Assembly (NCBI GenBank): GCA_016938015.1
Contig: JAFGVL010000089.1
Coordinates: 1 to 34,951 of the forward strand
DNA length: 34,951 nucleotides
Source: Paludibacteraceae bacterium
GTDB taxonomy: Bacteria > Bacteroidota > Bacteroidia > Bacteroidales > Paludibacteraceae
Reading direction: 5' to 3'
Shown here: in pieces, positions 5,577-11,363 of the stretch
How positions within the stretch are numbered: position 1 is the first letter of the stretch
How the letters are laid out: each line of letters begins with the position of its first letter
Program-made: the position numbers and the translations under genes
Notes under the pieces: generated by a model
Seen by the model: the letters and a program-made list of their open reading frames with translations, nothing else
The model's database searches: none
What the model was told of the DNA's origin: nothing

Positions 5577-6245
5577 TTAATCGTTTAAAACTTCGTCTAC
5601 CGTATAGTTTAAAAATTGGTTAATAGGGTGCAGTTGTTTAAATAGGGCAATAGTTTTGTTCATACAATCGTCCGATTCAAAAAATATATCGTTTACCCTA
5701 TGCGTAAATGCATAATGTTTGTTTTTCAGATAATCTCCTTCAGGAAAATCTGATGGAAATCCTCGAGGTATAGTTTTTAATTTTTCTTCTACTTCGCAAA
5801 AAATACTTTTAAAAGAGGGTTTTTCAACGATTGCTTTGTATTCGTCTATATTGTCATATACTGCTTTTCGTAAAGCTTTCAGAATATCCGGTTGAGGGCA
5901 ATATATACCACCACTTAATAAGCATCCTCCCGGCTCAAAATGAATATAGTAGCCCGCACGAAGGCTTTTTCTGCCTCCAACAGATATGTATGCCCCAAGG
6001 TGATTTTTGTATGGAGATTTATCGTGCGAAAACCGCACATCGCGGTAAATACGAAATATACAATCTTTGGCTTGTAGTCCCGAAATTTCTTGGTCGAATG
6101 CTGCGGTGTGAACAATTAAATAATTGACTATTTCTTCAAAATCAGTTAATGCTTGTTGATACGCATTTTTATTTTGTGCAAACCAATCCCGATTATTGTT
6201 GTTGGTTAGTTCCGATAAAAAATGCAAACAGTTTTTCCCATTCAT
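5577..6245 (-). CDS. DUF2461 / TIGR02453 family protein
   Basis: A 222-residue protein of unknown biochemical function. The family is recognisable from LxxNNNRDWFAQNKNAYQ near the N-terminus, FRIYRDVRFSHDKSPYKNH in the middle and YYIHFEPGGCLLSGGIY. I chose the ATG at 6243-6245: eight codons further upstream are open, but a promoter -7 element (6267-6274) would then lie on the start codon itself. The protein has no signal peptide, so it is probably cytosolic. The YhcH-family gene follows after 18 bp. Confidence 0.88.
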   Translation of the reverse strand: MNGKNCLHFLSELTNNNNRDWFAQNKNAYQQALTDFEEIVNYLIVHTAAFDQEISGLQAKDCIFRIYRDVRFSHDKSPYKNHLGAYISVGGRKSLRAGYYIHFEPGGCLLSGGIYCPQPDILKALRKAVYDNIDEYKAIVEKPSFKSIFCEVEEKLKTIPRGFPSDFPEGDYLKNKHYAFTHRVNDIFFESDDCMNKTIALFKQLHPINQFLNYTVDEVLND

Positions 6246-6266
6246 AAAAGTTGCCTTACAAAGTTG

Positions 6267-6274
6267 CAAAGTTA
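6267..6274 (-). promoter_or_regulatory. Promoter -7 element for the DUF2461 gene
   Basis: The minus strand reads TAACTTTG, a match to the Bacteroidota TAnnTTTG element, 21 bp upstream of the chosen ATG. No clear -33 TTTG is visible. Confidence 0.5.
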
Positions 6275-6381
6275 TGTTTTTCTTTGTTTAGTTGTTTTGA
6301 AGGGCTTTTTATTTTGCAGATTTAGTAATAATTATTTCTTTAATAGAAAAATCATTTTTTACTAGGAGCTGTCTTTTACCG

Positions 6382-6398
6382 TATTTTTGTTATTTTTG
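6382..6398 (+). promoter_or_regulatory. Two tandem -7 elements upstream of pheS
   Basis: TATTTTTG occurs twice, at 6382-6389 and 6391-6398. Both fit TAnnTTTG, and the second would give a leader of about 20 nt before the pheS ATG. The -33 region is not well conserved. Confidence 0.5.
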
Positions 6399-6422
6399 TG
6401 CTCTTATTATAGATAGATAAAA

Positions 6423-7442
6423 ATGCAAGACAAAATTAAGTTTCTTAGCCAAAAAATAGATACGTTTACTGCAAACGGATCGGATGAATTAGAGGCGCTT
6501 CGTATCCAATACCTAAGTAAAAAAGGCGAAATAACTGCTCTTTTCAACGATTTTAGAAATGTACCAAACGAGCAAAAACGAGAAATAGGTCAGTTGTTAA
6601 ATGTATTGCGCGATAAAGCACAAAATAAAATCAACGATTTAAAGGAAGCTTTAGAAAGTGCTCAAGTTGTGGAGAAAGGGATGGATCTTACTCGAACTGC
6701 CGACCCCATAGCTTTAGGAACAAGACATCCCTTGTCTATTGTAAAAAATGAAATAATCGATATTTTTTCTCGTATAGGCTTTACTATTGCCGAAGGACCC
6801 GAAATTGAAGATGATTGGCATGTGTTTGGTGCGTTAAATTTTGCACCGGAGCATCCTGCTCGCGATATGCAAGATACTTTTTTTATAGAACAACATCCTG
6901 ATGTGTTGCTACGTACACACACTTCGTCCGTACAATCGCGGGTAATGACTTCGCAAAAACCGCCTATACGTGTGCTTTGTCCGGGTCGTGTGTATCGTAA
7001 CGAGGCTATTTCGTATCGTGCACACTGTTTTTTTCACCAAGTAGAGGGTTTGTATATTGATAAGCAGGTTTCTTTTGCCGATTTAAAACAAGCCTTGTTG
7101 TATTTTGCCAAAGAAATGTTTGGCGAACATACGCAAATACGTTTACGTCCTTCCTATTTCCCTTTTACAGAACCATCTGCCGAGATGGATATTTCGTGTA
7201 ATTTATGTGGCGGTAAAGGTTGTCCGTTTTGTAAACATACCGGTTGGGTAGAAATTTTGGGTTGCGGTATGGTTGACCCCAATGTGTTAAACGAATGTGG
7301 TATTGATAGTTCAGAATACACAGGTTATGCCTTTGGGATGGGCGTTGAACGTATTACTAATTTAAAATATCAGGTAAAAGATTTACGTATGTTTTCAGAG
7401 AACGATGTGCGTTTTTTACAACAATTTAAGGCGGCATATTAG
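6423..7442 (+). CDS. pheS: Phenylalanyl-tRNA synthetase alpha subunit
   Basis: This is the catalytic subunit of the cytosolic alpha2-beta2 enzyme that charges tRNA-Phe. An N-terminal coiled coil (to about residue 90) precedes the class II core. Motif 2 is in the RVYRNEAISYRAHCFFHQVEG segment, PFTEPSAEMDI is at 247-257 and motif 3 is GYAFGMGVERI near the end. A four-cysteine cluster, C259, C262, C267 and C270 (CNLCGGKGCPFC), looks like a zinc ribbon insert, which I recall from Bacteroidota and some other bacterial PheS. The length of 339 is normal. pheT is not adjacent, so the subunit genes are split, unlike in Escherichia coli. A clear terminator follows. Confidence 0.97.
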   Translation: MQDKIKFLSQKIDTFTANGSDELEALRIQYLSKKGEITALFNDFRNVPNEQKREIGQLLNVLRDKAQNKINDLKEALESAQVVEKGMDLTRTADPIALGTRHPLSIVKNEIIDIFSRIGFTIAEGPEIEDDWHVFGALNFAPEHPARDMQDTFFIEQHPDVLLRTHTSSVQSRVMTSQKPPIRVLCPGRVYRNEAISYRAHCFFHQVEGLYIDKQVSFADLKQALLYFAKEMFGEHTQIRLRPSYFPFTEPSAEMDISCNLCGGKGCPFCKHTGWVEILGCGMVDPNVLNECGIDSSEYTGYAFGMGVERITNLKYQVKDLRMFSENDVRFLQQFKAAY

Positions 7443-7484
7443 TTGTTCATAACTTTTTTTAATATCTAAATTACCTATAAATAG

Positions 7485-7516
7485 CAACTTTCATTCAATT
7501 GAGAGTTGTTTTTTTT
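7485..7516 (+). terminator. Rho-independent terminator of pheS
   Basis: CAACTTTC (7485-7492) pairs with GAGAGTTG (7501-7508) with one G-U wobble and an 8-nt loop, followed by eight Ts. Confidence 0.85.
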
Positions 7517-7550
7517 ATATTTTAAGTAAAAAACATGTTATAAAATTATG

Positions 7551-7577
7551 TTGTAAAACATATTTATTGTATCTTTG
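7551..7577 (+). promoter_or_regulatory. Promoter ahead of the small membrane ORF and the FGE-like gene
   Basis: TATCTTTG at 7570-7577 matches the Bacteroidota -7 element exactly, with TTG at 7551-7553 as a possible but short-spaced (16 bp) -33. It predicts a leader of about 65 nt to the small ORF at 7649. Confidence 0.55.
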
Positions 7578-7648
7578 TACAAGATTTAAAACTATAAAAA
7601 GTTAAACTTTTGTTGTTTTGAACAAGTAAAAATTAAAAAATTACAGGT

Positions 7649-7750
7649 ATGAAAACAAGTAAAAAAAATTTATTTAGCACCACAATGGCAGTTATACTGT
7701 TGTTTGTGATTACTAACATGATTTTAATATACGCCTCTTTAAATTGGTAG
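7649..7750 (+). CDS. Small single-pass membrane peptide (33 aa), candidate
   Basis: ATG at 7649 opens 33 codons ending TAG at 7748-7750. The peptide starts MKTSKKNLFSTT, then has a hydrophobic stretch of about 18 residues (MAVILLFVITNMILIYA) and ends SLNW. This positive N-terminus plus one membrane helix is typical of genuine small membrane proteins. A promoter lies upstream and the FGE-like gene starts 80 bp downstream, behind a hairpin at 7774-7798. I do not recognise a family. It could be a leader peptide rather than a functional protein, or a chance ORF. Confidence 0.45.
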   Translation: MKTSKKNLFSTTMAVILLFVITNMILIYASLNW

Positions 7751-7773
7751 TATATTTTTATTGCTCTCTTTTA

Positions 7774-7798
7774 AAAATTATCTCTATTAGATAATTTT
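7774..7798 (+). other. Hairpin between the small ORF and the FGE-like gene
   Basis: AAAATTATCT (7774-7783) and AGATAATTTT (7789-7798) form a perfect 10-bp stem with a 5-nt loop. The Ts are within the stem, so it may be a weak terminator, an attenuator or an mRNA-stabilising structure. It begins 24 bp after the small ORF stop. Confidence 0.5.
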
Positions 7799-7830
7799 AG
7801 TGTTTAATCATTTATAAAAATCTATATCAT

Positions 7831-8694
7831 ATGAAAAAGAACGTAAATTTATTGATTTTCAAGGCTTGGAGATTAACTAATTTAAAACAAGTTCTTGCCG
7901 CAATTTTATCTGTGTTTGTGCTTTTACCCGTTTCAGCAGGAGGTGATAATATAATTACTACCAGTGCTAACATGGAGTTTGTTTTAGTTACGGGAGGTAC
8001 TTTTAAAATGGGAAATACCTTTGAACAAGATGGCTTTGAAGATGAACTTCCGGTACACCAAGTTACATTAAGCGATTTTTATATAAGTACTTTTGAAGTA
8101 ACTCAAGCAGAATGGAAAGCTGTAATGGGATCTAACCCGAGCACTTTTAAAGGTGATATGAAACCGGTTGAAAATATAAGTTGGTTTGATGCCATAGAGT
8201 TTTGTAATAAACTTTCTGAAAAAGAAGGTTTAAAACCTGCTTATACAATTGGAAGAAACAATAGAGCAACATGCGATTGGAGTGCAAATGGATACAGACT
8301 TCCAACCGAAGCCGAATGGGAATATGCCTCTAGAGGAGGAAAAGAATCAAAAGGATATATTTATTCCGGTAGCAATGCTATTGATGAAGTAGGTTTCTAC
8401 AAAGAAAATAGTATGAGTATGTCGCATCCAACCGGATTGAAAGTTCCTAACGAATTGGGAATTTATGATATGAGTGGAAATGTATGGGAATGGTGTTGGG
8501 ATTGGTATTCAAATTCTTACAGTCCCGAAGCTGTTACAAACCCTCATGGAGTTGAACAAGGTATAGAGCGTTGTCGTAGAGGAGGAAGTTGGGCGCAAAT
8601 TTCAAAATCAGCTCGTTCTTCTAATCGATTAGGTACGCCACCGGAATTAAAGTTTAATTATGTAGGTATACGTTTAGTGAAAAATGCCAAATAA
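7831..8694 (+). CDS. SUMF1/FGE-sulfatase domain protein, exported, lacking catalytic cysteines
   Basis: The 287-residue protein has a long N-terminal leader (positive to about residue 19, hydrophobic at 20-37, VSAG cleavage-like end), so it is likely exported. Residues about 48-285 form a formylglycine-generating-enzyme-like (C-type-lectin-like) domain: FVLVTGGTFKMGN, HQVTLSDFYISTFEVTQAEW, PVENISWFDAIEFCNKLSE, YRLPTEAEWEYASRGG, GIYDMSGNVWEWCWDWY, RRGGSW and NYVGIRLVKNAK. Active FGEs carry a cysteine pair shortly after RGGS; here that segment is SWAQISKSARSSNR with no cysteine. Formylglycine formation is therefore unlikely, and a binding or structural role is more probable (inference). No sulfatase gene is near. 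A strong terminator follows. Confidence 0.85.
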   Translation: MKKNVNLLIFKAWRLTNLKQVLAAILSVFVLLPVSAGGDNIITTSANMEFVLVTGGTFKMGNTFEQDGFEDELPVHQVTLSDFYISTFEVTQAEWKAVMGSNPSTFKGDMKPVENISWFDAIEFCNKLSEKEGLKPAYTIGRNNRATCDWSANGYRLPTEAEWEYASRGGKESKGYIYSGSNAIDEVGFYKENSMSMSHPTGLKVPNELGIYDMSGNVWEWCWDWYSNSYSPEAVTNPHGVEQGIERCRRGGSWAQISKSARSSNRLGTPPELKFNYVGIRLVKNAK

Positions 8695-8720
8695 CCAATA
8701 ATTACTTTTTATTATCTTTT

Positions 8721-8754
8721 CCGCCTTTTATTGATTAAAAGGCGGATTTTTTTT
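8721..8754 (+). terminator. Rho-independent terminator of the FGE-like gene
   Basis: CCGCCTTTT (8721-8729) pairs with AAAAGGCGG (8737-8745) over a 7-nt loop, followed by a T run. Confidence 0.9.
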
Positions 8755-8945
8755 GGCATATCTATTGATTACAATAGTCACCTTTATTTTTATAAATCCA
8801 TTATTTAATCTATGTGGCTAATAGATAGAATGTTGTGAATTATGTGTTTTTTTAGTTTATCTAATTAAGCAGCTTATTCGCTGACATTTTGTCTTTTATT
8901 CCTATATTTAAACAGATTTGTCATACTACTTATATATAACAGGAC

Positions 8946-11363
8946 ATGAATATAAAAATTGAACAATTATTTTCGGAGGATAATGAATTAGAACAATCGG
9001 AATTTATACCCTTAATTTCAGATGGAGAAGAAATATTCAATTTCGAGGGAAAAGAAGGAGATTCGTTACCAATACTTCCACTCAGAAATATGGTTTTGTT
9101 TCCGGGTGTTGTGATGCCTGTTAGTGTTGCTCGCAATAAATCATTGCGTTTAGTGCGTGAGGTTTATAATCAGAATGGTGTGCTTGGGGTTTGTACCCAG
9201 AAAGATATGAAAGTTGATAATCCTGCTTACAAGGATTTATATTCAAATGGAACAGTTGCTAAAATTGTTAGAATTTTAGAAATGCCCGATGGCTCAACAA
9301 CTGTTATATTAGAAGGTAAAAAACGATTGTTGTTAAAAGAGTTAGTCGAGTCGGAACCATATATTAGAGGGAAGGTAATTTTAGAGAATGAAATTGTTCC
9401 TCCTGAAGATGATCGTGTTTTTGTTGCGTTAATTGAGGCTATAAAAGAGTTAGCCATTAAGATAATTAAAAACTCAGGTTCTATTCCTCAAGAAATATCT
9501 TTTGCTATTAAAAATATAGAAAATCCGGTTAGTTTGATAAACTACATTTGTGGAAATTTTGGTTTGAAAGTATTGGATAAACAACACTTGTTAGAAATTG
9601 ATGATTTGCAGGAAAGAGGCTACCAATTATTGGAACTTTTAAATAAAGAATCTCAATTGCTTGAAATAAAAGTATCTATTCAGGCAAAAGCCCGCGAGGA
9701 TATAGAACAACAGCAACGGGAGTATTTTTTGCACCAACAAATGAAAACTATTCAAGATGAATTAGGAGGAGACTCTAAACAGCAAGAAATAGTTGAGTTG
9801 CAAGAACGAGCCAAGAAAAAGAAATGGAACGATACTGTAAAAAAAATATTCGAGAAAGAATTATCAAAATTAGAAAGAATGCATTCGCACTCTCCCGATT
9901 ATGGATTACAAAGTAATTATGTAGATACCATACTTAATATACCATGGGGAGAGTTTACGAAAGATAATTTTAATTTAGTACGTGCGCAAAAAGTCTTAGA
10001 TAAAGACCATTTTGGTATGGAAAAAGTGAAAGAACGTATTCTTGAGCATTTAGCGGTGTTAAAACTCAAAGGCGATATGAAATCGCCCATAATTTGTTTG
10101 TATGGCCCTCCGGGTGTTGGTAAAACTTCGTTGGGGAGATCTATTGCCGACACATTAAATAGAAAGTATATTAGAATGTCGTTGGGTGGTTTGCATGATG
10201 AGGCTGAAATTAGAGGACATAGACGTACCTATATTGGAGCAATGCCCGGACGTATTGTGCAAAACATTATTAAGTCAGGTTCGTCAAACCCTGTATTTAT
10301 TTTAGATGAAATAGACAAAGTAAATTCAGATTACAAAGGAGACCCTTCATCAGCATTATTGGAAGTATTAGACCCCGAACAAAACAGCAATTTCCACGAT
10401 AATTTTTTAGATATCGATTTTGATTTATCTAACGTACTATTTATTGCTACAGCAAATAACCTTAATACAATACCACCACCTTTATTAGATAGAATGGAAT
10501 TAATTGAGGTAAGCGGCTATATTTTAGAAGAAAAGGTGGAAATTGCAATGCGCCATTTATGGCCTAAACAGTTAGATAATCATGGTGTTAAAAAGGATCA
10601 TGTTACTATTTCTAAATCAACCATGAAAGAAATAGTTAGTTCTTATACAAGAGAATCGGGTGTTCGTGAATTGGATAGAAAGATTGCAAAAATTTTACGT
10701 AAAGTTGCTCGTAAAATTGCTATTGATGAACACTTTATATCTGAAATTACCGGCGATAACTTACAGGAGTACTTAGGAGCTGTAGAATATAACAGTGAGA
10801 AATATCAAGGCAACGATTATTATGGCGTTGTTACCGGATTAGCATGGACTGCTGTTGGTGGAGAGATTTTATATATTGAATCTAGTTTAAGTAAAGGGAA
10901 AGGAGAGAAATTAACACTAACAGGTAATTTGGGCGATGTGATGAAAGAGTCGGCTATGTTGGCCTTAGAATACTTAAAATCGCATGCTTCGCTTTTAAAA
11001 ATTGACGATAGTGTTTTTGAAAATTGGAATGTGCATGTGCATGTACCCGAAGGTGCAATACCTAAAGACGGACCATCGGCCGGTGTTGCAATGGTAACTT
11101 CATTGGCTTCGAGTTTTGCTAAACGAAAAGTGAAAAAGGAATTAGCTATGACAGGCGAAATTACCTTGCGTGGAAAAGTGTTGCCGGTAGGAGGAATTAA
11201 AGAAAAAATCCTTGCTGCAAAAAGAGCAGGGATTAAAGAAATTATTCTTTGCAAAGAAAATAAAAAGAACATTGAAGAAATAAAAGACAGTTATATTAAA
11301 GGTTTACAATTTCATTATGTATCCGATATTAAAGAGGTGTTGGATATTGCTTTGTTGAAATAA
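8946..11363 (+). CDS. lon: ATP-dependent protease Lon (LonA)
   Basis: A cytosolic AAA+ serine protease that degrades misfolded and regulatory proteins. The 805 residues show the three LonA parts: an N-terminal substrate-binding domain (LPILPLRNMVLFPGVVMPV at the start), an AAA+ module with Walker A GPPGVGKT at 387-394 and Walker B FILDEIDK, and a C-terminal protease domain with PKDGPSAG (nucleophile Ser711) and GGIKEK (dyad Lys754). The MTGEITLRGKVLPVGG strand between them is canonical. The extra acidic N-terminal 35 residues are common in Bacteroidota Lon. It appears to be a single-gene unit with its own terminator. No heat-shock promoter motif was recognised upstream. Confidence 0.97.
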   Translation: MNIKIEQLFSEDNELEQSEFIPLISDGEEIFNFEGKEGDSLPILPLRNMVLFPGVVMPVSVARNKSLRLVREVYNQNGVLGVCTQKDMKVDNPAYKDLYSNGTVAKIVRILEMPDGSTTVILEGKKRLLLKELVESEPYIRGKVILENEIVPPEDDRVFVALIEAIKELAIKIIKNSGSIPQEISFAIKNIENPVSLINYICGNFGLKVLDKQHLLEIDDLQERGYQLLELLNKESQLLEIKVSIQAKAREDIEQQQREYFLHQQMKTIQDELGGDSKQQEIVELQERAKKKKWNDTVKKIFEKELSKLERMHSHSPDYGLQSNYVDTILNIPWGEFTKDNFNLVRAQKVLDKDHFGMEKVKERILEHLAVLKLKGDMKSPIICLYGPPGVGKTSLGRSIADTLNRKYIRMSLGGLHDEAEIRGHRRTYIGAMPGRIVQNIIKSGSSNPVFILDEIDKVNSDYKGDPSSALLEVLDPEQNSNFHDNFLDIDFDLSNVLFIATANNLNTIPPPLLDRMELIEVSGYILEEKVEIAMRHLWPKQLDNHGVKKDHVTISKSTMKEIVSSYTRESGVRELDRKIAKILRKVARKIAIDEHFISEITGDNLQEYLGAVEYNSEKYQGNDYYGVVTGLAWTAVGGEILYIESSLSKGKGEKLTLTGNLGDVMKESAMLALEYLKSHASLLKIDDSVFENWNVHVHVPEGAIPKDGPSAGVAMVTSLASSFAKRKVKKELAMTGEITLRGKVLPVGGIKEKILAAKRAGIKEIILCKENKKNIEEIKDSYIKGLQFHYVSDIKEVLDIALLK

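Follow-up and report, generated by a model that had tools for sequence, protein, structure and literature searches.

A very probable 33-residue membrane microprotein encoded ahead of an FGE-fold protein devoid of catalytic cysteines in a Paludibacteraceae bacterium

Among solved structures, the closest relative of the FGE-fold protein described here, both by sequence and by fold, is TvpA (Treponema denticola variable protein 1, PDB 2y3c). TvpA is the target of a diversity-generating retroelement (DGR). Many bacterial proteins with an FGE domain do not possess the catalytic residues of the formylglycine-generating enzyme (SUMF1), according to PMC5915273, and in the type IX secretion system proteins PorK/GldK the fold is described in PMC12421860 as a non-catalytic docking hub. 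Single-span small membrane proteins are known as well: the smORF families covered in PMC11364881 comprise proteins of <50 aa with a basic N-terminus and one helix, conserved in frame. The locus reported here very probably holds one protein of each of these two known kinds. Among the paper titles listed in the literature searches, none dealt with a small ORF adjacent to a gene for an FGE/SUMF1-domain protein, which does not prove that such a report is absent.

The window, that is, the whole stretch of 34,951 nt which was analysed, comes from a genome of 2.0 Mb that is 92% complete (G000). Between pheS and lon it contains a separate unit, consisting of a terminator, the promoter element TATCTTTG, a small ORF, the FGE gene and a second terminator (Table 1). 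All elements claimed for this place in a preliminary description, namely promoter, small ORF, hairpin and FGE-like gene, were found again. Each of the two bordering terminators has an 11-bp stem followed by a U-run, with a folding energy of -12.6 kcal/mol (z -5.85) behind pheS and of -16.7 kcal/mol (z -4.64) behind the FGE gene; in both cases 0 of 200 shuffles were equally stable. The borders of the unit are supported by these computations.

Table 1. Position of the genes and sequence elements of the pheS-lon region within the window.
Feature	Position	Strand	Remark
pheS	6423-7442		first in the gene order pheS, small ORF, FGE, lon
Intrinsic terminator of pheS	7483-7516	+	left edge of the unit
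Inverted repeat ATGTT-N4-AACAT	7548-7561	.	possible operator
Bacteroidota -7 promoter element TATCTTTG	7570-7577	+	exact TAnnTTTG
Small ORF, 33-aa single-span membrane protein (predicted)	7649-7750	+	ORF with counterpart in G002
10-bp hairpin, A/U only, 5-nt loop, no U-run	7774-7798	+	between small ORF and FGE
FGE/SUMF1-fold protein, 287 aa, predicted to be exported, no catalytic cysteine pair	7831-8694	+	PF03781
Intrinsic terminator after FGE	8720-8754	+	right edge of the unit
lon	8946-11363		3' of the FGE gene

The promoter element ahead of the small ORF is exact, as had been claimed. TAnnTTTG is given as the Bacteroidota -7 consensus in PMC7366714, which also states that the -33 motif was absent from the findings in Flavobacterium johnsoniae. 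One would expect TAnnTTTG by chance in about 30% of such gaps (1507 of 5000 shuffled versions of it), therefore the octamer alone is weak promoter evidence. It is present in the pheS-FGE gap of all three genomes with the order pheS-FGE-lon, that is, G000 and two others of the same genus, G002 and G003. From the small ORF to FGE no TAnnTTTG was found in the window. In G002, TAAATTTG lies between the small ORF and FGE and could be a second promoter, which would count against a single unit. In the window, transcription would start just 3' of TATCTTTG, near position 7584 as judged from the -7 element, cover first the small ORF and afterwards the FGE gene, and end at the second terminator, ahead of lon.

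G000, G002 and G003 all carry the inverted repeat ATGTT-N4-AACAT ahead of the unit, with differing spacers, and it is rare by chance (14, 24 and 1 per 5000 shuffles of the three gaps). A regulon defined by it within the own genus is not supported, as there are 6 sites against 11 sites of a control pattern in G000, and 9/6, 6/5 and 16/8 in G001, G002 and G003, respectively. A separate observation concerns the whole genomes of G018 and G371, where 21 and 19 such sites were counted and the reversed control pattern occurred once in each. In the related genus to which they belong, the palindrome may be a regulon motif, or else base composition or codon usage may account for the numbers.

In line with the preliminary description, the product of the small ORF has a basic N-terminus and one hydrophobic stretch (residues 13–31, mean KD 2.39) suited to a membrane helix. 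It is predicted to be oriented N-in with a very short periplasmic end, and it gave no match against Pfam or NCBIfam. An open run of 33 codons from a given ATG has a probability of ~0.045 at this composition. Therefore, the 33-codon frame alone is weak evidence for coding. However, G002 possesses a 33-codon ORF at the same place, with the order pheS – small ORF – FGE – lon in both genomes. The two proteins are identical in 14 of 33 residues (42%), and the common residues occur throughout the membrane helix. Identity at the first, second and third codon positions amounts to 19, 26 and 10 of 34 codons (position 2 versus 3, Fisher p 0.0002), and 9 of the 14 common residues have different codons. 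The ungapped alignment of both proteins has a score of 71, which was reached in 0 of 200000 shuffles, including those in which the N-terminal and membrane parts were shuffled separately, and in 0 of 100000 codon shuffles. The maximum was 46 across 3000 shuffled gaps and 49 among 283 N-termini of membrane or signal type taken from the loci analysed. When the DNA is aligned, the small ORF is free of gaps, the 5'UTR is identical at 25 of 68 positions and the stretch from the ORF to FGE contains 52 gap columns. Identity within the ORF (55/102) is not higher than in the aligned columns 3' of it (39/70); the conservation signal lies in the way the codons differ and in the gap-free alignment, not in raw DNA identity. 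Thus, the conservation, the bias towards synonymous changes and the common gene order that had been suggested as a check are all seen in G002, and the membrane helix is conserved in frame as in other small single-span membrane proteins, in two sequences only. Since the protein is kept at the same place in a related species, the small ORF looks real and is very probably a coding gene for a membrane microprotein. It would add a well-supported microprotein gene of a size which gene finders tend to miss.

That the ORF exists by chance, its similarity to the G002 sequence being due to unspecific hydrophobicity or to an ORF on the opposite strand, appears very improbable. A+T-rich gaps do readily give rise to such ORFs, no more than two members are known, and the G002 gap includes a further hydrophobic ORF (35 aa) for which there is no counterpart in G000. 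Against this stand the score, well above both background maxima, and the equal length, common start and stop and codon-position signature of the two ORFs. With regard to the other strand, one antisense frame runs open over the small ORF in G000 as well as in G002, and its two translations agree in 11 of 33 residues. This frame uses the third positions of the sense strand, so the codon-position signature alone cannot decide between the strands. In favour of the sense strand are its score (71, versus 42 for the antisense frame), an ATG and a stop that match between the two genomes, and the promoter ahead of it. An antisense gene was rejected, as its frame contains none of the codons ATG, GTG and TTG in G002 and its ends do not match. 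We also considered an origin from a duplicated FGE signal peptide, an idea prompted by the position of the small ORF, which corresponds to the place of the FGE N-terminus in G003. Eight comparisons were made, and between 14 and 253 of the 283 background N-termini scored equally high or higher. The best one, small ORF of G000 against FGE N-terminus of G002 (14/283), is to be expected from eight tries and hence gives no support.

A convincing copy of the small ORF was found in two of the four genomes of the genus (G000 and G002) and in none of the 354 other genomes of the family (358 searched). With the window peptide alone, G002 was the best match after the window itself, with E 0.0079 over the whole G002 genome; a single-sequence search of 61 genomes gave matches in eight at E up to 1. 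A two-row profile produced some match at E up to 0.5 in 118 of the 358 family genomes, the best one outside G000 and G002 (E 0.0016) being located within an open frame of 903 residues; all these further family matches were marginal. In a sample of 393 genomes of the order, 15, G000 among them, matched at E up to 0.02, with 8.1e-4 as the best other value, and besides G000 this sample yielded nothing beyond marginal matches. Matches other than G002 were judged from tables; many of them are part of longer open frames or are interrupted by stops. In this restriction to two species among the 358 family and 393 order-sample genomes the small protein differs from the smORF families of microbiome catalogues. 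The preliminary description named frameshifts or a missing start codon in close relatives as counter-evidence; this applies in part, as the close relative G003, unlike G002, has no such ORF. In G003 the order pheS-FGE-lon, the promoter element and the inverted repeat are all kept, the small ORF is absent, and the sole sense-strand ORF of at least 20 aa in the gap is an unrelated 24-aa frame. G001 has a different gene after pheS. FGE orthologues without small ORF, all in pheS-FGE order, are present in G003, G018, G369, G370 and G371, hence FGE does not need the small ORF there. As G003 has FGE and the promoter element without it, the small protein is lineage-specific and not an obligate partner of FGE everywhere.

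Small hydrophobic ORFs before FGE-like genes were also searched for more widely. Among 110 loci scanned, 46 had a usable gap, and in these we found four such ORFs on the sense strand versus two on the control strand. The four are the G000/G002 pair, the extra 35-aa ORF of G002 and one in L106. A small hydrophobic ORF ahead of FGE-like genes is, then, no general arrangement. A scan of genome contigs for relatives of the locus returned no close relative among the best 80 of 583 loci (identity of the best segment at most 53%), therefore that scan is silent on the small ORF.

Comparing the pheS-FGE gaps lets one picture how the microprotein gene may have been born. In G018, G369, G370 and G371 the gap measures 55–81 nt and contains neither TAnnTTTG nor a small ORF; in G003 it is 217 nt long and has the promoter element and the inverted repeat; in G000 and G002, with 388–427 nt, it holds promoter element, inverted repeat and small ORF. 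A plausible route would lead from a short gap to one with promoter and inverted repeat and finally to the small ORF. The order of these steps is inferred, because the genus tree is not resolved, and the PheS identities of 88.8, 88.2 and 86.1% do not separate a single gain from a loss in G003. The value of the locus lies in a possibly young microprotein gene inside a defined unit, and in the plausible steps it displays by which such a gene could arise.

The downstream gene encodes a protein that shares the FGE-sulfatase domain with the formylglycine-generating enzyme over its full length (PF03781, E 7.6e-52, profile positions 3–255 of 255). The fold is supported by a structure model with a mean pLDDT of 89.3, and TvpA is nearest to it with TM 0.78 (phmmer E 3.2e-40). 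Unlike in the enzyme, both catalytic cysteines are replaced: RGGSW is followed by AQISKSAR, with Q256 and A261 at the catalytic positions, and the cysteine pair after RGGS(W/Y) is absent from the G002 and G003 proteins as well. The earlier statement that the RGGSW segment lacks the pair was right, though this is ordinary, as the first catalytic cysteine was found in 0 of 25 homologues with a readable motif, taken from the best 80 of 583 loci. For this count 32 of these best 80 loci were used, of which 26 were aligned (L080, L088, L090, L098, L100 and L118 were dropped) and 25 were readable, L070 giving no motif. At the second position, 21 of the 27 proteins aligned retain the cysteine, and those of the window, G002 and G003 have lost it. 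In its alignment TvpA resembles the window protein in having no cysteine at the first position, but differs from it by a cysteine at the second. The window protein was rejected as a DGR variable protein: in G000 (92% complete) there is no second copy of positions 8500–8694, only three 16-base matches (E 0.34). Its C-terminus is conserved among orthologues.

PorK/GldK likewise combine an FGE fold without catalytic cysteines with a place in the Bacteroidota envelope. Identity with GldK was rejected (NCBIfam TIGR03525, 97.2 against a cut-off of 350 bits), and the window protein is also shorter than PorK (491-aa chain). The N-terminal sequence, with a helix at residues 6–27 in the model and then VSA-GG, suggests export by Sec. 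There is no cysteine before residue 125, so it is not a lipoprotein, unlike PorK/GldK. Given the lost catalytic residues and the docking hub of PorK, the FGE-fold protein probably binds a ligand or partner, or acts as a scaffold, and does not oxidise cysteine.

The hairpin between the two genes was present as claimed, with perfect arms at 7774–7783 and 7789–7798. A perfect hairpin of such size is unusual (32 of 5000 shuffles), and alone it folds with -5.7 kcal/mol (1 of 200 shuffles equally stable). The whole 80-nt gap between small ORF and FGE has a fold z of -1.31, with 19 of 200 shuffles equally stable. This hairpin bears on the idea, raised in the preliminary description, of a cis-acting leader peptide, where translation of the small ORF would control FGE through stalling or the downstream hairpin. 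The small ORF does lie within the 5' region of FGE, Y28, A29 and W33 near its C-terminus are common to G000 and G002, and PMC7366714 mentions attenuation-like sORFs in long 5'UTRs of B. thetaiotaomicron. However, the common residues extend along the whole membrane helix and are not confined to the C-terminus. The hairpin ends 32 nt ahead of the FGE start, has no U-run, and folding of the G002 gap revealed no counterpart (z +1.05). A conserved terminator/antiterminator of an attenuation leader was not found, nor did Rfam match anywhere within window positions 6000–10000. With neither a U-run nor a G002 counterpart, leader-peptide attenuation is unlikely, and this idea has become weaker.

Of the two-component envelope unit proposed beforehand, the two-gene unit under its own promoter is backed by the terminators on both sides, whereas a joint action of the products is an inference. 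A bicistronic envelope unit, in which a small inner-membrane protein would be co-transcribed with a non-catalytic FGE-fold protein, has in our view about an even chance of being correct, and we would put the joint action of both products at much the same level. The most likely mechanism would be that the small protein, held in the inner membrane by its one helix, supports, anchors or regulates the exported, periplasmic FGE-fold protein or its partner. Alternatively, the small ORF may encode a real membrane protein with a function unrelated to FGE, with which it would share no more than the promoter after insertion between promoter and gene. This is possible, although we consider it less probable than the bicistronic unit. 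It would agree with the strong coding evidence together with a linkage known in two genomes only, and with the five other pheS-FGE genomes in which FGE occurs without the small ORF. On the other hand, the genes form a two-gene unit, the intergenic hairpin is not terminator-like, and the position is kept in two species so diverged that the small proteins share 42% identity. The bicistronic unit can be carried further, by analogy with the FGE fold of PorK, which docks PorN: the small protein might be a recently born, dedicated membrane partner of a non-catalytic FGE-fold scaffold, and both together a minimal envelope module and small-scale analogue of that pair. We regard this extension as speculative and rather doubtful. 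If the pair interacts, it would offer a small testable system for the role of non-catalytic FGE-fold proteins.

Two further observations were made in the window. Between the FGE terminator and lon, at 8755–8777, lies GGCATATCTATTGATTACAATAG, most of which is conserved in G002 and G003; within it, at 8762–8777, there is a perfect inverted repeat, CTATTG-ATTA-CAATAG. The spacing of GGCATATCTATTGATTACAATAG resembles that of a sigma-54 site. Such a site ahead of lon is not supported, as no Sigma54_DBD was detected in G000 (92% complete), in a search that was positive in 4 of 14 control genomes. Finally, positions 2331–2837 on the - strand encode an exported-looking protein of 168 aa, which is made up of repeats of ~15 residues (variants of ENxHHSTxxYIKxNGT).
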